From assembly GCF_034259325.1 (NCBI RefSeq), contig NZ_JAXIVS010000014.1, positions 186,001 through 250,000 of the forward strand: a stretch of 64,000 nt of DNA, written 5' to 3'. This DNA comes from Hyalangium ruber. GTDB lineage: Bacteria; Myxococcota; Myxococcia; Myxococcales; Myxococcaceae. The position numbers were made by a program, and so were the translations under genes. The notes beneath the pieces are model-generated. The model searched no databases, had not been told where the DNA came from, and saw only the letters and a list, made by a program, of their open reading frames with translations. Numbering within the stretch: position 1 is the first letter of the stretch; each line of letters opens with the position of its first letter. Of this stretch, positions 4,770 through 51,200 are shown piece after piece.

Positions 4770-6446
4770 TTGACGACCGTGAACACCTATTCCGTCCGCA
4801 AAGGCGACACCCTGAACGAGCTGGCGAAGCGCTTCGGCACTTCGGCCAAGGAGATCGCCAAGAAGAACGGCCTGGAGGACATCAACAAGATCCAGGTGGG
4901 CCAGAAGCTGATCATGCCGGACAGCTTCGAGCAGGGCACCCGCACGGGGAGCACCAACAGCGGCACCAGCAGCAAGCCCTCCCCCGAGGCGAGCGCCCCG
5001 GCGACCACGGCGGCCAAGAGCGGCCCGGCGAAGGATGACGACGGCCGGCAGTTCCCCACCTCGCGAGACGGCACCCCCATCTACAAGCAGGGCGACGCGC
5101 AGTGGGGCGGCCGCACGCTGGGCTCCAGCTCCAGCCTCGCGGCGGCGGGCTGCGCCATGACGTCGACGGCGATGGCCATCAGCAAGATCACCGGCAAGGT
5201 GATCAACCCGGGCGAGCTGGACCAGTACCTGGACAAGAACGGCGGCTACTCGGGCAACGGGCTCATCTGGGGCAAGGCCGCGCAGATGGCGGGCCTGGGC
5301 GCCAGCAAGCCGGGCTGGAGCTTCGACAACATCAACAAGCAGATCGACGCGGGCCGCCCGGTGGTCATCGGCGTGGACTACAAGGCCGGCAGCAACGGTG
5401 GCGCGAACGGCACCGACCATTGGATCACCGTGACGGGCCGCGGGACGCAGAACGGCAAGCCGGTGTACTACGCCAATGATCCGGCGACGGGGAAGGAGAT
5501 CACCCTGACGAAGGACGGCAACCGGCTGACGGGTGGCCCCCAGGGCTACAAGTCGACGGGCGAGCTGGTGACCTTCTCGGGCGGCAACCCGAACCCGGGC
5601 ACGGCGCCGACCAACTCGCAGCCGGGCGGCGAGACGCCGACGCAGACCCCTCCGGCGAGCAGCGTGGACATGAAGGGCACGACCCTGCCGGGGGGCGAGC
5701 TGAAGAAGGGCGCCCGGGGCCCCGAGGTGGAGCAGCTCCAGAACGCGCTGGTGAAGTCGGGCCACCTGACGCAGGCGGACATGAGCACGGGCCCGGGCAT
5801 CTTCGGCCCGAAGACCGAGGCGGCGCTCAAGAAGTTCCAGGCGGACAACGGCGTGGACGCCATCGGCATCTACGGCCCGAAGACGCGCGCGGCCTTCGAG
5901 AAGCTCGGCGCGAAGATCGGCGGAGGCTCGTCGACGCCCACCAACCCCACGGGCCCCACCACGCCGGTGGGTGACCTGCCCAAGACGGGCAACGCGTTCC
6001 TGGACCGCGTGGCGGCCGACGCCATCAAGAGCCAGCGGCAGACGGGCGTGCCGGCCTCGGTGACGCTGGCGCAGGCGATGCTGGAGAGCGGCTCGGGCCA
6101 GTCGGGCCTGGCCACCAAGGCCAACAACTTCTTCGGCATCAAGGGCGAGGGCCCCGCCGGCCACGTCACCATGCCCACCAAGGAGTTCCTCAACGGCAAG
6201 TGGGTCACGGTGAACGCCAACTTCCGCAAGTACAACTCGCCGGCCGAGTCCTTCGCGGACCACGGCAAGTTCCTGCGCGACAACCGCCGCTACGCCAACG
6301 CCTTCAACCACACGGACAACGCGGCCCAGTTCGCCCGGGAGATCCACAAGGCCGGCTACGCCACCGACCCCGAGTACTCCAACAAGCTCATCTCCATCAT
6401 CAACAAGTACGGCCTGGACCGCTTCGACAAGATCGCCCGGGGTTGA
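4770..6446 (+). CDS. Modular peptidoglycan hydrolase: LysM - C39-like peptidase - PG-binding - GH73 glucosaminidase
   Basis: A 558-residue wall hydrolase. The N-terminus is a LysM domain (SVRKGDTLNELAKRF). Residues 90-245 form a C39_2-type papain-fold peptidase with Cys128 (AAGCAMTS), His217 (TDHWITV) and Asp237 (YANDPATG). A PG_binding_1 domain follows (residues 295-375). The C-terminal third is an FlgJ-like GH73 N-acetylglucosaminidase with the catalytic Glu439 in AMLESGSG and the NNFFGIK motif. No signal peptide precedes LysM, so the export route is unclear. The frame is open upstream to 4599, overlapping the previous gene, but the TTG at 4770 (MTTVNTYSV) aligns with the start of the paralogue at 6573 (MSVNTNYSV). 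A GTG at 4779 is an alternative. The next gene is a tandem paralogue with a different catalytic end. Confidence 0.85.
   Translation: MTTVNTYSVRKGDTLNELAKRFGTSAKEIAKKNGLEDINKIQVGQKLIMPDSFEQGTRTGSTNSGTSSKPSPEASAPATTAAKSGPAKDDDGRQFPTSRDGTPIYKQGDAQWGGRTLGSSSSLAAAGCAMTSTAMAISKITGKVINPGELDQYLDKNGGYSGNGLIWGKAAQMAGLGASKPGWSFDNINKQIDAGRPVVIGVDYKAGSNGGANGTDHWITVTGRGTQNGKPVYYANDPATGKEITLTKDGNRLTGGPQGYKSTGELVTFSGGNPNPGTAPTNSQPGGETPTQTPPASSVDMKGTTLPGGELKKGARGPEVEQLQNALVKSGHLTQADMSTGPGIFGPKTEAALKKFQADNGVDAIGIYGPKTRAAFEKLGAKIGGGSSTPTNPTGPTTPVGDLPKTGNAFLDRVAADAIKSQRQTGVPASVTLAQAMLESGSGQSGLATKANNFFGIKGEGPAGHVTMPTKEFLNGKWVTVNANFRKYNSPAESFADHGKFLRDNRRYANAFNHTDNAAQFAREIHKAGYATDPEYSNKLISIINKYGLDRFDKIARG
5304..5903 (+). 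repeat. Long direct repeat, copy 1 (pairs with 7104-7703)
   Basis: 600 bp that recur exactly 1800 bp downstream with 16 differences counted by eye, about 97 % identity. A 230-bp stretch (5611-5840) is completely identical, including synonymous positions. It covers the second half of the peptidase domain, the linker and the peptidoglycan-binding domain. Outside this block the two genes drift apart to clearly lower identity. Confidence 0.9.
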
Positions 6447-6572: not shown

Positions 6573-8219
6573 ATGAGCGTGAATACCAACTACTCTGTCC
6601 GTCGCGGCGACACCCTCAACGAGCTGGCCAAGCGCTTTGGCACGACGGCTCAGGAGATCGCCAAGAAGAACAATCTCTCGGACGTCAACAGCATCAAGGT
6701 TGGCCAGAACCTGGTGATGCCGGACAAGTTCGAGACCGGCTCGGGCACTCCCAGCAGCGCCGGCCAGCCCTCGGGCGACACGTTCCAGGCGAGCGAGACG
6801 TCGAACACCACCGCCGCTCGCGGTCCGGTGAAGGATGAGGACGGCCGCCAGTTCCAGACCTCGGCGGACGGCACGCCCATCTTCAAGCAGGGCGACGCGC
6901 AGTGGGGCGGTCGCGCGCTGGGCACCGGCTCGAGCATCTCCGCGGCGGGCTGCGCGATGAGCTCCACGGCGATGGCCATCAGCAAGATCTCCGGCAAGGT
7001 CATCAACCCGGGCGAGCTGGACGCGTACCTGGACAAGAACGGCGGGTACTCGGGCAACGGCCTCGTGTGGAGCAAGGCCGCGCAGGCGGCGGGGCTGACC
7101 GCGAGCAAGCCGGGCTGGAGCTTCGACAACATCAACAAGCAGATCGACGCGGGCCGCCCGGTGGTCATCGGCGTGGACTACAAGGCCGGCAGCAACGGCG
7201 GCGCCAACGGCACCGACCACTGGATCACCGTGACGGGCCGTGGGACGAAGGACGGCAAGCCGGTGTACTACGCCAATGATCCGGCGACGGGGAAGGAAAT
7301 CACCCTGACGAAGGACGGCAACCGGCTGACGGGTGGCCCCCAGGGCTACAAGTCGACGGATGAGCTGGTGACGTTCGGGGGCGGCAACCCGAACCCGGGC
7401 ACGGCGCCGGCCAACTCGCAGCCGGGCGGCGAGACGCCGACGCAGACCCCTCCGGCGAGCAGCGTGGACATGAAGGGCACGACCCTGCCGGGGGGCGAGC
7501 TGAAGAAGGGCGCCCGGGGCCCCGAGGTGGAGCAGCTCCAGAACGCGCTGGTGAAGTCGGGCCACCTGACGCAGGCGGACATGAGCACGGGCCCGGGCAT
7601 CTTCGGCCCGAAGACCGAGGCGGCGCTCAAGAAGTTCCAGAGCGACAACGGCGTGGACGCCATCGGCATCTACGGCCCGAAGACGCGCGCGGCCTTCGAG
7701 AAGATGGGCGCGCAGATCAGCAGCAGCCCGGCGAGCAACACGGGCGGCACGAACAACACGGGCGGCACGAACAACACGGGCAGCACGAACGGGCCGGCCA
7801 AGGGTAACAACGACCTGAGCGGCTTCTCGTCGAACAAGTACGACGCGCTGATCAACGAGATGTCGCAGAAGTACAACGTGCCCGCGCGCCTCATCAAGTC
7901 GGTCATCCAGCAGGAGTCGGCGTTCAACCCGAACGCGCGCTCGCCGGTGGGTGCCACGGGCCTGATGCAGCTGATGCCGGCCACCGCGCGTGGCCTGGGC
8001 GTGACGAACCCGAACGACCCGCGCCAGAGCATCGAGGGCGGCACCAAGTACCTGTCGCAGATGCTGAAGATGTTCAAGGGCGACACGACGCTGGCGCTGG
8101 CCGCCTACAACGCGGGCCCGGGCAACGTGCAGAAGTACGGCGGCGTGCCTCCCTTCAAGGAGACGCAGAACTACGTGAAGAAGATCACCGGCTGGTACAA
8201 CGGCGCCGGCCCGGCGTAG
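6573..8219 (+). CDS. Modular peptidoglycan hydrolase: LysM - C39-like peptidase - PG-binding - SLT lytic transglycosylase
   Basis: A 548-residue tandem paralogue of the gene at 4770. It has the same LysM, C39-like peptidase (Cys127, His216, Asp236) and PG_binding_1 order, but the C-terminus is a different enzyme: a GH23/SLT-type lytic transglycosylase with the catalytic Glu448 in IQQESAFNP, then GATGLMQLMPAT and AAYNAGPG. The linker before it contains a short Thr/Asn/Gly tandem repeat (GGTNNT type, 7741-7790). The product should bind and cut peptidoglycan, possibly both peptide and glycan parts. No signal peptide is visible. The ATG at 6573 is chosen by alignment with the paralogue; an in-frame ATG at 6543 would add 10 residues. 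Together the pair looks like duplication followed by catalytic domain exchange. Confidence 0.87.
   Translation: MSVNTNYSVRRGDTLNELAKRFGTTAQEIAKKNNLSDVNSIKVGQNLVMPDKFETGSGTPSSAGQPSGDTFQASETSNTTAARGPVKDEDGRQFQTSADGTPIFKQGDAQWGGRALGTGSSISAAGCAMSSTAMAISKISGKVINPGELDAYLDKNGGYSGNGLVWSKAAQAAGLTASKPGWSFDNINKQIDAGRPVVIGVDYKAGSNGGANGTDHWITVTGRGTKDGKPVYYANDPATGKEITLTKDGNRLTGGPQGYKSTDELVTFGGGNPNPGTAPANSQPGGETPTQTPPASSVDMKGTTLPGGELKKGARGPEVEQLQNALVKSGHLTQADMSTGPGIFGPKTEAALKKFQSDNGVDAIGIYGPKTRAAFEKMGAQISSSPASNTGGTNNTGGTNNTGSTNGPAKGNNDLSGFSSNKYDALINEMSQKYNVPARLIKSVIQQESAFNPNARSPVGATGLMQLMPATARGLGVTNPNDPRQSIEGGTKYLSQMLKMFKGDTTLALAAYNAGPGNVQKYGGVPPFKETQNYVKKITGWYNGAGPA
7104..7703 (+). repeat. Long direct repeat, copy 2 (pairs with 5304-5903)
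   Basis: Second copy of the 600-bp block inside the paralogous hydrolase, offset by exactly 1800 bp. Such near-identity in adjacent genes points to recent duplication or ongoing gene conversion. It also makes the locus a likely site of unequal recombination or assembly collapse. Confidence 0.9.
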
Positions 8220-9269: not shown

Positions 9270-9695
9270 ATGCCGATGGAGCGAGCGCAGCGGTTCGCGG
9301 AAGCCCTGACGAAGCTGGAGGAGAGCGGAGACCTGGAGCCGCTCGTCTCGCTGTTCGCCGATGACGCGCAGGTGAGCAACGTGGCCACGTCGCGGGTGTT
9401 TTCGGGGAGGGAGGGGGCGCGCCTGTTCTGGAAGGAATACAAGGGGATGCTGACGCGGGTGAAGTCCACCTTCCGGAACTTGATTGAGTCAGGAGACCGG
9501 GTGGCGCTGGAGTGGGAGACGCAGGGCACGGCGCAGAACGGCGCGGCGGTGAACTACGAGGGCGTCTCCATCATCGAGTGGGACGGCGAGCGAATCAGCC
9601 GCTTCTACGCATACTTCGACCCGGGGTTGCTGGGGCGGGAGATGACGCAGGGGACGGCGAAACGCTCGGAGCCGCCGGCCACCACGCCGGCCTGA
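9270..9695 (+). CDS. SnoaL / NTF2-like fold protein
   Basis: 141 residues with the pattern of the SnoaL-like (NTF2-fold) superfamily: an N-terminal helix (RAQRFAEALTKLEESGD), the typical LVSLFADDAQV, a central FWKEYKGML helix, then beta strands ending in EWDGERISRFYAYFDP. Proteins of this type bind small hydrophobic ligands or act as polyketide-cyclase or isomerase-like enzymes; no specific reaction can be assigned. The C-terminal 20 residues are a Thr/Pro/Ala tail. The ATG at 9270 is preceded by GAGGG at a short spacing. A GTG-started frame upstream would add unlikely sequence. No partner gene is adjacent on the same strand. Confidence 0.75.
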   Translation: MPMERAQRFAEALTKLEESGDLEPLVSLFADDAQVSNVATSRVFSGREGARLFWKEYKGMLTRVKSTFRNLIESGDRVALEWETQGTAQNGAAVNYEGVSIIEWDGERISRFYAYFDPGLLGREMTQGTAKRSEPPATTPA

Positions 9696-9768
9696 GCCCT
9701 CGGACACTCCAGAGCACGAGGGGTGAACGCCGGGAACTCAGGAGGAGGCCAGGCACGAACTCACGTTT

Positions 9769-9941
9769 GGGACACGCAGGTCGCGGGCCCCTCGTCTCGG
9801 CGCGGGTCCCCCCATCAGCGGATGGGTCCGCCCGCGCCGGCCGTCCCGCTCTCCCAAGGGCCACGGCCTCCAGCGGGCGGCTTCCTTCGCGGTGTCCCTG
9901 GGGCGCGCACTTTGCGAATCGGTCCAGTTGTCTGACAGGTT
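9769..9941 (+). repeat. Dispersed repeat element, copy A (second copy inverted at 51690-51862)
   Basis: About 173 bp. An 80-bp core (9776-9855), beginning GCAGGTCGCGGG and ending CCGTCCCGCTCTCCC, matches the reverse complement of 51777-51856 with five substitutions by eye. A variable middle follows, then a second shared block with TGGGGCGCGC and TTGTCTGACAGGTT. The layout (conserved core, variable spacer, conserved palindromic end) resembles a non-coding mobile or REP/MITE-like element. Confidence 0.75.
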
Positions 9942-10199
9942 GGCTGACCCACTGCCGGTAGGGGCTGCAGCACCTTTGCGGAAGGGAATGCAGGTAGAGC
10001 CCTGGACGAGATGCACAACATCTATGTTCGGAGGCTTAAGCCCCTTCAGGTAAGTGAGTGAAGACCCAGTTCCCGAGAGAGGACCGCCGCCTCTCGTGTG
10101 CATCGCCGCTCAGGCGCTTCCGCCAGGTGCTGAAGGCTGCGCAGTGGAAAGTTGGCTCCGGGTCTTGCATTAGGGGCCGCCCCGGCGGCGCTTCTGCCC

Positions 10200-10223
10200 A
10201 ACCTGTCTGATGTCTGACAGGTT
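10200..10223. repeat. Palindrome of the AACCTGTC...GACAGGTT family
   Basis: AACCTGTC (10200-10207) and GACAGGTT (10216-10223) form perfect 8-bp arms around TGATGTCT. The same motif ends the dispersed repeat near 9941, where the left arm is eroded, and at 51690-51714, where the arms are 10 bp. It is not beside a coding start, so an operator role is not obvious. Confidence 0.6.
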
Positions 10224-10345
10224 TGCTCAGCCCCCGCCCTGGGCAGGCGCTCAAGTCCTGATCGCTCTGTCTCCACGGAAACGATGGCCATCGCTCAGCA
10301 CCTTCGGCAACTGTGCTGAAAGGGGTTAGGCGGCTCATCGCGGGC

Positions 10346-10993
10346 TCAGGCGGCGCGGACCTCCTCGAGGGTGCGGCACAGCTCATCGATGGTGTCGGTG
10401 AGCTCGCGGGCACGGCCGGCGGCGTGGGTATGGGCGCCCTCGTAGCGCAGGAGGGTGAGCCGGGTGGCCAGCTCGCCGGAGCGGGCCAGGGCGCGCTCGA
10501 GGTCGGCACGGGCCTGGGCGCGCAGGGATTCCAAGCGGGAGAGGTGGGCCAGACGCTCGCGGAGGATGTCGGCCACGGGCTTGGCGTCGGTGCGAGCATC
10601 CATGGAGGCCAGCTCCCGGGCGAGCGCATCGGTGTCGTGGTCGGGAGAGGACAGCACGGCATCCAGCTCGGCGAGGCGACGGGAGGCGGCGCGCAGGGCG
10701 GTGCCGAGCGAGCGTACGCGCGCGGTCTCCAGGGCCAGGGGGTCCCCCAGCTCGCGACCGAGCCGCTGGAGCGCGTCCTGGAGGGTGGCTTCGGCGGCGT
10801 CGATGCGCGAGCCGCCAGCGCCGGCGGGTGCGGCGGCGGTGGGCATGAGCACGGGGAGGAACAGGGGCCAGAGGACGGCGTGGAGTCCGGCGCGGGCCAT
10901 GCCTCCGGCGCTCCGGGCCTCACCGCGAGCGAGCACGAAGGCGACGGCGATGCCGGCCAGGCAGTAGGCCGCGACGGTGACGAGGGCGATCAT
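10346..10993 (-). CDS. Membrane-anchored coiled-coil protein, unknown function
   Basis: 215 residues. The N-terminus (MIALVTVAAYCLAGIAVAFV) is one transmembrane segment or uncleaved signal anchor, and a second hydrophobic stretch (AGLHAVLWPLFLPVLMPT) follows at about residue 35. The remainder is a long Ala/Leu/Arg/Glu-rich helix, probably coiled coil. No catalytic motif is seen and I do not recognise the family. It is the last gene of a three-gene minus-strand operon. Its ATG shares one base with the TGA of the gene before it (TGATG), a translational coupling arrangement, so it is likely made together with the two membrane proteins at 10993-12360. Confidence 0.75.
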   Translation of the reverse strand: MIALVTVAAYCLAGIAVAFVLARGEARSAGGMARAGLHAVLWPLFLPVLMPTAAAPAGAGGSRIDAAEATLQDALQRLGRELGDPLALETARVRSLGTALRAASRRLAELDAVLSSPDHDTDALARELASMDARTDAKPVADILRERLAHLSRLESLRAQARADLERALARSGELATRLTLLRYEGAHTHAAGRARELTDTIDELCRTLEEVRAA

Positions 10994-11799
10994 CACCAAC
11001 GCTCCTCGGGGTCCTCGGAGTCGGAGGAGCGCGGCCGCCAATCGCCGGTGAGGGAATCGACATTGGAGCGCCAGAGGGTGGAGGCGGCGTCGAAGGCGCT
11101 GCGCTCCAGGGGACGGAAGGCGACGGAGGGGCTGCCGGGGGTGCCGACGAAGGGGCGGACGACCCAGGCCATCTGGATGCCGACCATGCCGTAGAGGGCG
11201 GTCCACGCGAGGAGGTGGAGGGTGGTGCGGCCCTGGATGCGCAGGGCTTTGACGAGGACCCACACCCCGCGCAGGGCGGCGAGCCCGAGGAAGGCGAGGC
11301 TGCCGAGCATGACGTGGAAGTAGCCAGTGGGTGGGTGGTTGACGGCGTTGGCGAAGGCGAGCCACACGGGGCACAGGCCAAGCAGGGTGAGGCCGGTGGT
11401 GGAGAGTGCGACGAGGGCCTCGCACACGGCCTGGAGCGCGGAGCCGCGGCCGCCGAGGAGTCGGCCATAGACGTGAAGGGCGGGCAGACACACGGCGAGG
11501 CTGCCGAGGCCCACGAGCATGAGCTTGGGAGCGGCGGCGAGCCCGGCGAGGGGCGAGCGGGTGAGGCCGAGGAGGAAGCCAAAGGCGCCAAAGCCAATGA
11601 GGGCACAGACGGCGAGGCGCAGGGGCAGCTCGCGCAGCTCGGGGCCGCCGGCCTGAACCTGGGCGAGCACGGCGGAGGGGTTGCGCAGCAGCAACTCAGC
11701 GGTGCGGAGGATGCTCGCGGAAGCGGGCAGCGCGGGCAGCACAGGCACGGAGGGGACGGGGGACTCGGAGGGAGCGACGGAGGACACGGGCAGGGACAT
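10993..11799 (-). CDS. Multi-pass membrane protein, paralogue of next upstream gene
   Basis: 268 residues. A Pro/Ser/Val-rich N-terminus is followed by a soluble helix (RTAELLLRNPSAVLAQV), then about five or six hydrophobic segments from residue 62 to 215, and a charged tail with SLTGDWRPRSSDSEDPEE. The membrane part aligns in segment order with the protein at 11818 (both share an AVCLPALHVY / ALCLPALYIL-type motif and a long Ala/Leu-rich helix after it), so the two look like ancient paralogues. The topology is similar to Yip1-like membrane proteins, but that is weak. The start at 11799 lies 18 bp after the upstream gene's stop. Confidence 0.72.
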   Translation of the reverse strand: MSLPVSSVAPSESPVPSVPVLPALPASASILRTAELLLRNPSAVLAQVQAGGPELRELPLRLAVCALIGFGAFGFLLGLTRSPLAGLAAAPKLMLVGLGSLAVCLPALHVYGRLLGGRGSALQAVCEALVALSTTGLTLLGLCPVWLAFANAVNHPPTGYFHVMLGSLAFLGLAALRGVWVLVKALRIQGRTTLHLLAWTALYGMVGIQMAWVVRPFVGTPGSPSVAFRPLERSAFDAASTLWRSNVDSLTGDWRPRSSDSEDPEERW

Positions 11800-11817
11800 G
11801 GAGGGCCTCGTGAGGAG

Positions 11818-12360
11818 CTACCAGTAGAGCCCGGTACCGCGAGCGCACTGGGTGAAGGTGATGGCGTGGAGGGCGAGGAAGGCGACGCGGGTGTAGCCAG
11901 CGAAGGAGGCGCCGTAGCGCTGGAGGGCCAGGGAGAAGGTGTGGCCACTGGCGACGAGAGCGAGGAGGGTGAAGAGGAAGGCCAGCGGCGAAGCGATGCT
12001 GGACTCGGGGGCGGTAGCGGCGAAGAACCAGAGGATGGGCGTGGTGGAGGCCAGACACAGTCCGAGGGTGTGAAGGGCCTCGAGGGCGGCCTGAGCGCAG
12101 TGGGCGGCGCCGAGGCCGGGCTGTCGAGTAGCCCAGAGGATGTAGAGGGCGGGGAGGCACAGGGCCCAGGCCATGAGGGACACGGCGGGGAGAGCGAAGG
12201 CCCAGCCGAGATGAGCGGCGCTGAAGCCCTCATGGGTAACGGCGGTGCGCAGGGCGAAGCCGAAGAGGGCGATACCGCCGAGGCCAATCGCGAGGGGCCG
12301 GACGGAAGGCAAGGCAAGGGCGTGCGCTCCGCCGAGCGCGGTGAGCGAGGAGGGCTGCAT
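11818..12360 (-). CDS. Multi-pass membrane protein, first gene of three-gene operon
   Basis: 180 residues with about five transmembrane segments: residues 20-40 (PLAIGLGGIALFGFAL), 50-75 (LGWAFALPAVSLMAWALCLP), 95-120, 128-150 and 155-178. No extracellular domain or catalytic motif is present. It resembles the membrane part of the protein encoded just downstream. The pair plus the coiled-coil protein at 10346 form an operon whose function I cannot name. The ATG at 12360 is divergent from thiD, with 174 bp between the two starts. Confidence 0.72.
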   Translation of the reverse strand: MQPSSLTALGGAHALALPSVRPLAIGLGGIALFGFALRTAVTHEGFSAAHLGWAFALPAVSLMAWALCLPALYILWATRQPGLGAAHCAQAALEALHTLGLCLASTTPILWFFAATAPESSIASPLAFLFTLLALVASGHTFSLALQRYGASFAGYTRVAFLALHAITFTQCARGTGLYW

Positions 12361-46736: not shown

Positions 46737-46985
46737 GGAAGACCGTAGGCTCGGGGTGAGGACGCCAGGGCGATCGCCCCGGCGTGACCCGCAGATTTAG
46801 CACGTCACGAGAAGAGTTGCCGGGACCTAAGAGGTGGGCGGAGGCGGGGTGCCCGGTTGCTCGCTATCACCGGGGAAGAAGGGCTCTCCTGGAAGGGCCG
46901 GAGGCGGGAGCGGGTAACTCCGCTTGATCGGGGAGCAGCCGGAGCGTCAGGCTTTGACGCATGAGTCCAAAGCCCTGCCCGGACG

Positions 46986-49900
46986 ATGCGTATGCCTCCT
47001 GAACTGAAGGAGGTGCTCACCTGGGACGAGAACCGGCTGCGCGCGAGCGGCGAAGGCCTGGCGGTGCTGGTGGGCGCCGTGATGGAGGGGCCGGGGTCTG
47101 AGCGGACCTCGGCGCTGGAGGTGCTGGGCCGGGTGCTCGCGTGGAACCCACGCCGTGCCGCACAGCGAGAGCTGCCGAGAGGGCTGGAGACGCTGCTCGA
47201 CAGCCCCGAGGTGGAGGTGCGGTGGGTGGGCGCGCGGCTGGTCGATGCGAGCCGCATGCCCGAGGCCATTCCGAAGCTGAGGCGCGGACTGGGGGATGCG
47301 GACGCGAGACTGCGCGAGGCCTGTGTGGGCGCGCTGAGAGAGGCGGAGCTGGGGCCCGAGGCGCTCGGTGAGCACCTGGACTCGGAGCGGGCCGAGGAGC
47401 GCGAGGCAGCGCTGGAGCTGGTGACCCCTCAGGTGCGCGAGGCGCTGCGACCGAGGCTGCTGCGGCTGCTTCGGGACTCGGTGGCGGCGGTGCGCTACCT
47501 CGCGGCGGAGCGGCTCGGAGTGGAAGCGGAGGCGCCAGAGGCGTGGGCGGTGACGCTGGAGGCGGCGCGGGAGGGCCGGGATCAGGATCTGCGGATCAGC
47601 GCGCTCGAGCGCCTGGCGCGGTTCGGGCCGCGAGCGGAAGCGGTGCCCGTGCTGCTGGAGCTGTTGAGGGCGGACCCGGACGACCTGGTGCGAGAGGTCG
47701 TCGCGGGGGTGCTCGAGGCGCTGGCGCCCCTGCATCCCGAGGTGGCGGAGGCACTGGTCCATGCGTTGAGGGACAAGGACCTCAGCGTGGCGGAGCGGGC
47801 GGCGATGTCCCTGTCCAGGCGGGGCGCGGCCACGGAGGCGGTGGTGCCGCGGTTGCTGGCGGCGTTGGAAGACCCCGCGGTGGATGAGTTCGTGCGCGGA
47901 GCGGTGGCGCTCGCGTTGGCGCGGCAGGGAGCGCGGGCCGTGGTGCCAGTGCTGGTGCGCCTGCTGAAGCAGCCCGATGACCACTTTCGAGCGCGCGGGG
48001 ACGAGGTGACGGGATGGGGGACGGAGCCGCCGTTGAAGCTCCAGGCGGTGGAGGCGCTCGGGGTGCTGGGACCGCTGGCGGAGGAAGCGGTGCCGGTGCT
48101 GCTCGCGAGCCTCCGGACGGGCGCGGTCGAGCGCCAGCCCGCGGATGCCGAGGCCCTGGAGCGCATCGGCACGGCGAGGGAGGAGCTGGAGGCGCTCCTC
48201 TGTGAAGTCCTCCCTGGCGCCGAGGGCTGGAGCAAGGCGCGGATGCTGGCGGTGTTGTCGCGGGTGAAGCCCGAGCGGGACGCCTCGCTGCGGCTGCTGG
48301 TGAATGCGCTGGAGCACGAAGATGCGCGAGTCCGCACGCAGGCGCGGACGCACCTGTGGCGCGTGATGGGAGATCGACCCGAGAGCCTGGAGCGCCTGGA
48401 AGCCTTCACGCGCGGGGAGGACGCCACGCTCCGACACGCGGCCACCGAGGCGCTACGGATGTTGGGCCGGCCCACGGAGGGAGGCCTGGCATGGCTGGGG
48501 GGGCAGCTCTCCTCGGCGAACGAGGAGGAGCAGGAGCACGCCATCACGGAGTTGAGGACGCTGGGGCGCCGGGCAGAGTCGCTGGTGGACAAGCTCACGG
48601 GGCGGCGGCAACGGCTCGGCCCCCGGTCGCGCGCGGCGGTGCTCACAGTGCTGGGCCCGTTGAGCGGAGGGCGGCTCGACGAGGCACGGCGGGCGGAGCT
48701 GGCGTCGGGATTGGAGGACGAGGATGCGCGGGTGCGGGAGGCGGCACTCTGGGCGCTGGCGGACTTCACCGACGTGGACGCGCAGACATGGCAACGCGCG
48801 GAGGCGCGGCGGGAAGACCCGGAGCCGCAAGTGCGAGAGGCGGCGGAGGCGGTGCTCGGCAAGCACCGGGGCGCACGAACCGAAGAAGTCCCGAGCGCGG
48901 AAGCGCCCACGGCGCAGGCAGCCCAATCCCTCCAGCGGTTCACCTTCGCGCTCTACGCCGTGCTGAGAGAAGGCGAGGGCAACCGTGTCTTCTCGCCCCT
49001 GTCTCTCTTCACGCTGTTGGCCATGGTGATGCGCGGAGCGCGAGGCGGCACGGAGGAGGCGCTGCGAAGGGCGCTGCGCTGGCCCACGGAGCCGGAGAGG
49101 ATCTCCCAGGCCCTGCAGTTCCTGAGCGCGAAACTACACCTCCCTACAGCCCAAGATGCGGTCCCGCATATAAAGGAGGGGGACGAGGGGGCGGCGCTGG
49201 TGTCGGCGAACGGCTTCTGGGGGCAGGAGGGCTACGCGTTTCGAGCGGAGTACCTGTCGGAGCTGGCGGAGCAGTTCGGAGTGACGACGCAGCGGGTGGA
49301 CTTCGCGGGAGCACCGACGCAGGCGAGTGAGCGCATCAACACCTGGGCGCGGGAGCAGACGCGGGGCCGCGTTACGAACCTCTTCTCACCAGAAGAGCTG
49401 TCGGAGGCGACGCGGTACGTGATGGCGAACGCGGTGTACTTCCGTTCGCGCTGGGCGCAGCCCTTCTACGAGGGCACGCGGGAGGCGCCATTCCACCTGC
49501 TGGATGGGAGGGAGGTGGACGTGCCGATGATGAGCCGGGAGGGCCGCTTCGGCTACGCGAGAGGGTCGAGGTACCAGCTCATCGAGCTGCCCTACCGAGG
49601 CGGACAGACATCGATGGTGGTGCTGCTGCCGGACGCGGGCTTCTTCGAGCGCATCGAGCGGCTGCTGACGGCGGAGGGAGTCGAGGGGCTCCTGGCGAAG
49701 CGAACGCAGGAGGACTTCACGCTGAAGCTGCCGCGCTTCCACTTCGAGCAGAGCGTGAACGTGACGGAGCTGGCGGAGCGGCTGGGGCTCTCGGCGCTGT
49801 TCGGGGCCGAGGCGGACCTGTCGGGGATGACGCCGATGCGAGAGCCCTTCGCGGGCCAGCTCCGGCACGACGCGACCCTCACGGTGGACGAGGAGGGGAC

Positions 49901-50072
49901 GGAGGCGGCGGCGGTGATGCGGGTGTACCACATGGGCGGAGTGCCGCAGGTGGTGGTGGCCAACCGTCCATTCCTGTACCTGATCCGGCACGAGGCCACG
50001 GGGGCGGTGTTGTTCCTGGGGCGGGTGATGGATCCGAGAGGCTCACAGCCACAGGGGAACGCGAGAGGGTGA
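46986..50072 (+). CDS. HEAT-repeat / serpin fusion protein
   Basis: 1028 residues. Residues 1-640 are a HEAT-repeat solenoid (about 15 units; AVPVLLELLRADPDDLVREVV, VVPRLLAALEDPAVDEFVRGA). Residues 648-1020 are a serpin: QRFTFALYAVLR, NRVFSPLSLFTLLAMVMRGA, YVMANAVYFRSRW, and the C-terminal signature FLYLIRHEATGAVLFLGRV (from about Phe996). The reactive loop has the inhibitory-type hinge EEGTEAAAV (Gly971 = P15) and is one residue shorter than that of alpha-1-antitrypsin up to the conserved Pro-Phe. It is thus expected to trap a serine or cysteine protease, with P1 around Met/Gly. No signal peptide, so it is cytoplasmic. The ATG at 46986 has an alternative at 46992. The ATPase gene follows after 21 bp. 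Confidence 0.88.
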   Translation: MRMPPELKEVLTWDENRLRASGEGLAVLVGAVMEGPGSERTSALEVLGRVLAWNPRRAAQRELPRGLETLLDSPEVEVRWVGARLVDASRMPEAIPKLRRGLGDADARLREACVGALREAELGPEALGEHLDSERAEEREAALELVTPQVREALRPRLLRLLRDSVAAVRYLAAERLGVEAEAPEAWAVTLEAAREGRDQDLRISALERLARFGPRAEAVPVLLELLRADPDDLVREVVAGVLEALAPLHPEVAEALVHALRDKDLSVAERAAMSLSRRGAATEAVVPRLLAALEDPAVDEFVRGAVALALARQGARAVVPVLVRLLKQPDDHFRARGDEVTGWGTEPPLKLQAVEALGVLGPLAEEAVPVLLASLRTGAVERQPADAEALERIGTAREELEALLCEVLPGAEGWSKARMLAVLSRVKPERDASLRLLVNALEHEDARVRTQARTHLWRVMGDRPESLERLEAFTRGEDATLRHAATEALRMLGRPTEGGLAWLGGQLSSANEEEQEHAITELRTLGRRAESLVDKLTGRRQRLGPRSRAAVLTVLGPLSGGRLDEARRAELASGLEDEDARVREAALWALADFTDVDAQTWQRAEARREDPEPQVREAAEAVLGKHRGARTEEVPSAEAPTAQAAQSLQRFTFALYAVLREGEGNRVFSPLSLFTLLAMVMRGARGGTEEALRRALRWPTEPERISQALQFLSAKLHLPTAQDAVPHIKEGDEGAALVSANGFWGQEGYAFRAEYLSELAEQFGVTTQRVDFAGAPTQASERINTWAREQTRGRVTNLFSPEELSEATRYVMANAVYFRSRWAQPFYEGTREAPFHLLDGREVDVPMMSREGRFGYARGSRYQLIELPYRGGQTSMVVLLPDAGFFERIERLLTAEGVEGLLAKRTQEDFTLKLPRFHFEQSVNVTELAERLGLSALFGAEADLSGMTPMREPFAGQLRHDATLTVDEEGTEAAAVMRVYHMGGVPQVVVANRPFLYLIRHEATGAVLFLGRVMDPRGSQPQGNARG

Positions 50073-50093: not shown

Positions 50094-51200
50094 ATGACGG
50101 TGACGAAGCTGGAGATAGCGGGGTACCGCTCGGTGCGGAGGTTGGTGTTGCCGGTGCATCCGGTGACGGTGGTGGTGGGGCCGAACGGGAGCGGGAAGAC
50201 GAACCTGTACCGAGCGCTGTACCTGTTGCAGGCGGCGGCGGAGGGGCGGCTGGCGAGGACGCTGGCGGAGGAGGGGGGCACGCCGAGCGTGGTGTGGGCG
50301 GGGCCGAGGGAGCACAAGAAGCCGGTGCGGCTGACGGTGGGAGTGACGTTGGATGACGAGCTGGCCTACGAGCTGAGCTGCGGCATTGCGCCGAGTGACC
50401 CATCGGAGCCAGCGACCCTGTTCGTGTTGGATCCGGAGGTGAAGGAGGAGCACCTCTGGGTGCTGGTGGGAGGACGGCGTGGGGTGTTGATGGAGCGCAA
50501 GGACCGCACGGCCTTCCTGCGAGACTCGGAAGGAAAGCGGGTGACGTTCCCGACGCAGCTGTGGAGCGCGGAGTCGGTGTTGGATCAGCTCGCCGAGCCG
50601 CACCGTTTCCCCCGGCTGTCGGAGGTACAGCGGACGTTGAAGTCGTGGCGCTTCTACCACCAGTTCCGAACGGACCTGGAGTCACCGGCGCGGCAGACGC
50701 AGGTAGGAGTGCGCACGGTGGCGCTGTCGAACGACGGAAGAGACCTGGCGGCGGCGCTGGGAACCATTCACGAGATTGGCGACCGAAGGGGACTGGCGAA
50801 GGCACTGGACGATGCGTTTCCGGGCTCGGAACTGGAGGTGCAGGCGCCACAGGGACGTTTCAGCCTGCTCTTACACATGCCGGGCTTGAGCCGGCCGATG
50901 GCGGCGAGCGAGCTGTCGGACGGGACGTTGCGGTACCTGTGCCTGCTGGCAGCGCTGCTGAGCCCGAGGCCGCCGCCATTCCTGGCCTTGAACGAGCCGG
51001 AGACGAGCCTGCACCCGGACCTGCTGGGACCCCTGTCGCGCCTCATCGTGGAGGCAGCCAAGAACAGTCAGATCTGGGTGACGACGCACGCGGAGGCGCT
51101 GGCGGAAGCCATCTCCCGACGCACGGGCTACGAGCCGGTGCGGCTGGTGAAGCAAGGCGGGGCCACGGACGTGGAAGGCACGTCCAACCCAGAGGACTGA
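50094..51200 (+). CDS. AAA_21-type ATPase (RecF/OLD-like ABC-ATPase fold)
   Basis: 368 residues. Walker A VVGPNGSGKTNLYRAL (about 29-42), an ABC-signature-like LSDGTLRYL, Walker B FLALNEPETSLHPDLL and the H-loop WVTTHAEALAEAI place it in the AAA_21 family of SMC/RecF-type ATPases. This family includes standalone ATPases used in repair and in phage defence together with nucleases or other effectors. No nuclease (TOPRIM) domain is attached here. It lies 21 bp after the HEAT-serpin gene and is very probably in its operon, so the pair may act together. It converges on rpiB with only 4 bp between stops. Confidence 0.88.
   Translation: MTVTKLEIAGYRSVRRLVLPVHPVTVVVGPNGSGKTNLYRALYLLQAAAEGRLARTLAEEGGTPSVVWAGPREHKKPVRLTVGVTLDDELAYELSCGIAPSDPSEPATLFVLDPEVKEEHLWVLVGGRRGVLMERKDRTAFLRDSEGKRVTFPTQLWSAESVLDQLAEPHRFPRLSEVQRTLKSWRFYHQFRTDLESPARQTQVGVRTVALSNDGRDLAAALGTIHEIGDRRGLAKALDDAFPGSELEVQAPQGRFSLLLHMPGLSRPMAASELSDGTLRYLCLLAALLSPRPPPFLALNEPETSLHPDLLGPLSRLIVEAAKNSQIWVTTHAEALAEAISRRTGYEPVRLVKQGGATDVEGTSNPED

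Follow-up and report, generated by a model that had tools for sequence, protein, structure and literature searches.

A HEAT-repeat solenoid fused to an inhibitory-type serpin in Hyalangium ruber and two other genera

Hyalangium ruber carries a gene in which a long solenoid of HEAT repeats is joined, within one open reading frame, to a complete serpin domain with a hinge of the inhibitory type. The gene lies in the window that we analysed, a stretch of 64,000 nucleotides (contig NZ_JAXIVS010000014.1, positions 186,001 to 250,000 of the forward strand), and orthologues are present in two further genomes, G081 and G047. Serpins and HEAT solenoids are each familiar; what is new is their fusion and its narrow, loss-prone distribution. 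We propose, with about even confidence, that the product is an intracellular inhibitory-type serpin aimed by an N-terminal HEAT docking platform. The solenoid would bind a partner, either the target protease itself or a complex in which that protease works, and would so concentrate the serpin locally; any protease that cut the reactive loop near Gly985 would be trapped as an acyl complex upon insertion of the hinge into sheet A. That the serpin inhibits, that the solenoid docks and what it docks to are all predictions of this proposal. The locus is organized as follows:

46737 to 46985, no strand assigned: intergenic stretch with partial conservation in G081, G082 and G083 and a putative promoter role (from comparison)
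46986 to 50072, plus strand: HEAT-serpin fusion gene, 1028 amino acids (open reading frame, Pfam, orthologues)
46986 to 48215, plus strand: HEAT-A, residues 1-410, the portion with stand-alone relatives (Pfam, profile search)
48216 to 48875, plus strand: HEAT-B, residues 411-630, additional HEAT repeats (Pfam, matches)
48876 to 48926, plus strand: poorly conserved linker between solenoid and serpin (alignment of the three orthologues)
48927 to 50036, plus strand: serpin domain, residues 648-1017 (Pfam, PDB sequence match, model and fold match)
49890 to 49919, plus strand: reactive-loop hinge P17-P8, EEGTEAAAVM (orthologue alignment)
49938 to 49943, plus strand: predicted scissile bond Gly985-Val986 (P15-to-P1 spacing)
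50094 to 51200, plus strand: AAA_21-type ATPase, 368 amino acids, a widespread neighbour (Pfam, distribution)

The frame of the fusion gene begins with ATG and is free of internal stop codons, and Pfam recognizes both of its parts. The serpin profile (PF00079) aligns from position 2 to 370 of 370 at 309.6 bits, against a cut-off of 27; this full-length match above the curated cut-off places the domain in the serpin superfamily. HEAT_2 passes in seven stretches, totalling 114.4 bits against a cut-off of 27.7, and so identifies tandem HEAT repeats in a solenoid of about 620-630 residues. The sequence-only reading of this DNA, which had described the fusion, named a frameshift or an assembly join of two genes as one finding that would overturn it. 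The probability of such an artefact is negligible, because the same fusion, 58-61% identical, is carried as a single fused frame by genomes of two other genera. The three copies occupy two different genomic settings, and GC at codon position 3 is even along the frame (0.880 in HEAT-A, 0.882 in HEAT-B and 0.877 in the serpin), both of which also speak against a join. The fusion is genuine.

The orthologues emerged when 96 genomes of the family were searched at the protein level; three of the 96, from three genera, have the fusion. The G081 protein is 58% identical over residues 6-1022. The G047 protein is 61% identical over residues 201-1023, with a further match over residues 1-151 in the same open frame; about 50 residues are missing between the two matching stretches, and identity overall is 59%. 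When 195 genomes of the phylum were searched with a profile of the three-row alignment, 88 gave hits at E <=1e-25; almost all of these fell on the serpin only, and both halves were found in one gene in just these three (four candidates scored per genome). The suggested check, a search for HEAT-serpin architectures, thus returned the same architecture in two further genomes of the phylum. The number of candidates scored per genome (8 in the family protein search, 4 in the phylum profile search, 18 in the HEAT-A profile search and 20 in the ATPase search) is small, such that weak or extra copies may be missed. Among plasmids, 107 records match the fusion and none covers 80% of the query; two phage records match. 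Scans of genome contigs, with the single sequence and with the three-row alignment, and of viral contigs, with the fusion as query, were without yield. The earlier remark that bacterial serpins are uncommon does not apply to the order, in which 67 of 145 genomes carry one. Two serpin genes lie close together at each of four loci, L028 (G038), L016 (G073), L020 (G074) and L043 (G076).

The protein is probably cytoplasmic, as judged from its N-terminus. A hydrophobic, signal-peptide-like N-terminus was not seen by Kyte-Doolittle hydropathy in any of the three orthologues (maximum 19-residue mean in the first 60 residues of 0.83, 0.78 and 0.94), in agreement with the absence of a signal peptide noted earlier. 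The HEAT part is acidic, with net charges of -20, -16 and -19 in the three orthologues. Its PDB matches include alphaREP proteins, which are artificial binding scaffolds; this counts in favour of a docking function. A single-sequence structure model of the full-length protein (pLDDT 39.2) is too weak to judge the solenoid in space.

The serpin domain is better defined. Conserpin is its best PDB sequence match (1.5e-56), and an AlphaFold2 model of the domain, built on an alignment of five rows (pLDDT 72.1, pTM 0.78), again places conserpin first by fold, with a TM-score of 0.86 by query length. The best 50 of 415 matches in the fold search (E <=0.001) are all serpins by their titles. The structure prediction that had been proposed as a check therefore gives a serpin fold. 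The model has pLDDT <50 in the loop and draws the hinge as a strand, and is therefore silent on the native state. In an alignment to conserpin read by eye, most of the conserved core positions of serpins are kept; departures include FRS instead of the usual FKG and several conservative changes. The complete domain, its core positions and its fold all count in favour of the docking serpin.

The hinge and the loop bear on inhibition. The inhibitory form of the P17-P9 hinge is E-x-G-T-E-A-A-A-A, as quoted in a passage of PMC8233489. The hinges of the three orthologues, EEGTEAAAV, EKGTEAAAV and EKGAEAAAA, each follow this form with one departure, Val at P9 in two and Ala at P14 in one. The earlier assignment of GTEAAAV to the inhibitory type stands, and its completeness needs qualifying, in that P9 is Val and P8 Met in place of the commoner Ala and Thr. 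Met at P8 is found in human alpha-1-antitrypsin too. Across the orthologues P14 is Thr, Thr and Ala, P12 and P10 are Ala, and P8 is Met, Thr and Thr, residues that appear compatible with loop insertion. The reactive loops are GTEAAAVMRVYHMGGVPQ in the window genome, GTEAAAVTQVFHVGGVPP in G081 and GAEAAAATRVFHIGGMPQ in G047. The loop is equal in length to that of conserpin in the alignment, so P1 is predicted to be Gly985 and P1' Val986; the Gly984-Gly985 bond is also possible, because a MAFFT alignment with other serpins gaps one residue between the two glycines. By spacing, the predicted P1 is Gly in all three orthologues.

Glycine suits most known targets of serpins poorly as P1, and its predicted presence there lends weight to the main rival of the docking serpin, a non-inhibitory domain. 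Here, as in HSP47, angiotensinogen and the hormone-binding serpins, the domain would not trap proteases; it would be a binding or conformational module, the HEAT part would carry the main function, and the hinge would be an inherited remnant. Val at P9 in two of the three orthologues points the same way. Non-inhibitory serpins, however, often lack small hinge residues, whereas P15-P10 is GTEAAA in two of the fusions and GAEAAA in the third. Nor is Gly at the predicted P1 peculiar to the fusions: among the 70 distinct serpin rows taken from the examined loci, a subset of the serpins matched, 69 have Gly aligned at P15, and nine of these have Gly at P1, namely the three fusions and six rows outside their clade. 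The same six rows weaken the idea that Gly-Gly at the predicted P2-P1 marks peptidases cutting at Gly-Gly as targets. We regard a non-inhibitory domain as rather unlikely, while considering it the most serious alternative.

The idea of an unusually conserved loop is likewise unsupported. Among the three orthologues loop identity is 0.54, 0.54 and 0.62, so that the loop is no better conserved than in 204 other pairs of serpins that have diverged to a similar degree (mean 0.54, sd 0.12). Loop conservation is thus ordinary and gives no sign of a single fixed target, which counts against the docking serpin.

In a tree of the 70 rows, the three fusions form one clade (support 99/97), to which a truncated serpin of G044 is sister (100/100), the G047 row and the G044 fragment both differing from the alignment in letter make-up. 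At locus L066 (G044, 6637-7400) this truncated serpin, which lacks the reactive loop, ends beside a short inverted-repeat stretch seen by eye. The stem of the fusion clade is long, 1.02 changes per column, and sides with a non-inhibitory domain, as do high rates of protein change. When the window genome is compared with G081, NG86 gives the fusion a dN/dS of 0.70 (each HEAT part 0.67, the serpin 0.75), the ATPase 0.18 and the response regulator 0.48. With G047 in place of G081, the two HEAT parts come to 0.51 and 0.62 and the serpin to 0.39. All these values are rough because NG86 ignores the strong codon bias and YN00 mostly failed. The high dN/dS indicates modest constraint, not stronger on the serpin in the G081 pair, in which amino-acid identity is 66% for the serpin and 53% for the HEAT parts. 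For the docking serpin it counts that the fused architecture has been kept in three genera despite this fast protein divergence.

The locus records loss as well as retention. In the window genome and G081 the fusion is flanked by a response-regulator gene on one side and the ATPase on the other; its setting in G047 is different. In G083 and G082, which belong to the genus of G081, the matches to the response regulator and the ATPase are 506 and 307 bp apart, respectively. Within the G083 gap, one stretch aligns at 163 bits to the G081 upstream region running into the first bases of the fusion gene, and another at 67 bits to serpin-coding sequence; the best score in 500 two-base-block shuffles of the gap was 34.6 bits. 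As laid out at locus L106 (G083, gap 5867-6372), the scar of the deleted HEAT-serpin comprises the upstream region with the start codon and short serpin-coding pieces. Read from these remnants, the fusion gene was once present in G083 and was then deleted. In G082, whose gap lay outside the shuffle control, a 113-bit match takes in the upstream region as far as the gene's first bases, with nothing long beyond, and the gene was probably deleted there as well. The scar in G083 and the upstream remnant in G082 mark the fusion gene as dispensable and accessory. That the gene reached this site in the window genome and G081 only recently is less probable than an older presence followed by loss, given the scar retained in G083.

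The neighbours do not point to a target. None of the four window neighbours scanned is a peptidase (two had a Pfam match), nor is any of ten neighbouring open reading frames of the G047 and G081 orthologues (six had any Pfam match). Those of the G047 orthologue include a TonB-type receptor, a glycosyl hydrolase 88 and an oxidoreductase, and suggest no partner. In the window, the genes after the ATPase presumably encode ribose-5-phosphate isomerase and transketolase, as read from their translations. Peptidase-free scanned neighbours, Gly at the predicted P1, modest constraint, and loss in G083 and probably G082 all weigh against the docking serpin.

The ATPase gene follows the stop codon of the fusion by 21 bp on the same strand, exactly the spacing from which the sequence-only reading had gone on to suggest a protease-control or anti-protease defence module of the two genes. 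The arrangement is common to G081, and the ATPase resembles the HEC-01A candidate defence ATPases (E 2.3e-52, PADLOC). Its distribution is nonetheless not that of a partner: the ATPase is present in 49 of the 96 family genomes, the fusion in three, and the two adjoin in only two, the window genome and G081. Among 15 ATPase neighbourhoods besides that of the window, the fusion is adjacent in one (G081) and absent from the other 14. In G047 the fusion, at about 9.99 Mb, is distant from both copies of the ATPase (near 0.15 and 5.95 Mb), and G083 retained the ATPase after losing the fusion. Between the window genome and G081 the ATPase is 89% identical and the fusion 58%. No PADLOC family matches the fusion at E 0.01. 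On this distribution we reject the ATPase as a dedicated partner; it is an ordinary common neighbour, and a two-gene module, which the counts do not support, is very unlikely.

The sole hint of defence for the fusion lies at locus L063 (G081, 9812-12251), where a Septu-like PtuA/PtuB pair (PDC-M01) stands directly downstream of the ATPase beside the orthologue. This hint, together with an accessory distribution marked by loss, fits a further alternative, a protease sensor. Here a protease that had invaded or strayed would cut the loop, and the cut would snap the serpin into its relaxed state and alter the HEAT platform, which would then signal. The main recommendation of the sensor is its architecture, in which a spring-loaded domain sits on a scaffold, probably in the cytoplasm. 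Against it, Pfam finds no effector domain in the protein, no conserved partner gene was seen, and the response of the HEAT part is itself a supposition of the proposal. We consider the sensor improbable. Equally a long shot is the variant in which a protease foreign to the cytoplasm, such as a phage or a rival might deliver, would trigger loop insertion and the HEAT platform would relay the change to a partner; the protein would then be a bacterial intracellular protease sensor.

The HEAT part has relatives of its own. In a profile search, HEAT-A was found in 7 of the 96 family genomes, three times fused to a serpin and four times not (G073, G045, G048 and, more weakly, G114). Unlike the fusion, these four stand-alone proteins have no serpin part. 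The first three are 48, 44 and 43% identical to HEAT-A of the fusion, their matches stopping at fusion residues 437, 395 and 396, respectively; the G114 match is weaker (E 1.2e-46). The copies of G045 and G048 sit in similar settings, and no neighbour common to these and the copies of G073 or G114 was seen, reading mostly from translations. At locus L072 (G073, 9328-12163), a DUF2381 protein lies beside a serine/threonine kinase and adjoins the stand-alone relative.

Among known systems, the fusion shares with conserpin and the inhibitory serpins of PF00079 a complete serpin domain and hinge. It differs in the roughly 620 HEAT residues in front and in the Gly at the predicted P1, and its inhibition is predicted. 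The second serpin of the window genome (G000:C6), 36% identical to the fusion serpin and with a GTEAAA hinge, exemplifies the lipoprotein-like serpins of the phylum, which have a lipobox-like leader, mostly Ala-Thr at P9-P8 and no HEAT part. A lipobox with a hydrophobic stretch is present in 38 of the 70 rows by a crude motif test, which undercounts; that none of the three fusions has a hydrophobic N-terminus sets them apart and speaks for the docking serpin. Passages of PMC8233489 call the functions of prokaryotic serpins relatively enigmatic and state that transport peptides are present in most of them; an ExGTEAAAA hinge is common to nearly all of the hub-like serpins, which, according to the same source, may act inside the cell. 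HEAT repeats are named among the domains in an excerpt of a paper on cyanobacterial metacaspases (PMC2853523). Among the matches listed from the open-licence literature, no title or beginning of an abstract describes a HEAT-serpin fusion.

A parallel for the docking serpin is chloropin, the serpin of Chlorobium limicola, which is accelerated by DNA bound across helix D; its authors speculate that DNA is a natural modulator, many prokaryotic serpins being intracellular (PMC10090351). Both would be bacterial serpins served by an extra binding surface. That of chloropin binds DNA, a separate cofactor, whereas in the fusion the surface would be the acidic HEAT part, a large and probably protein-binding scaffold joined to the serpin itself. 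The partner of the HEAT part should then point to the intracellular protease, if there is one, that is under the control of the serpin.
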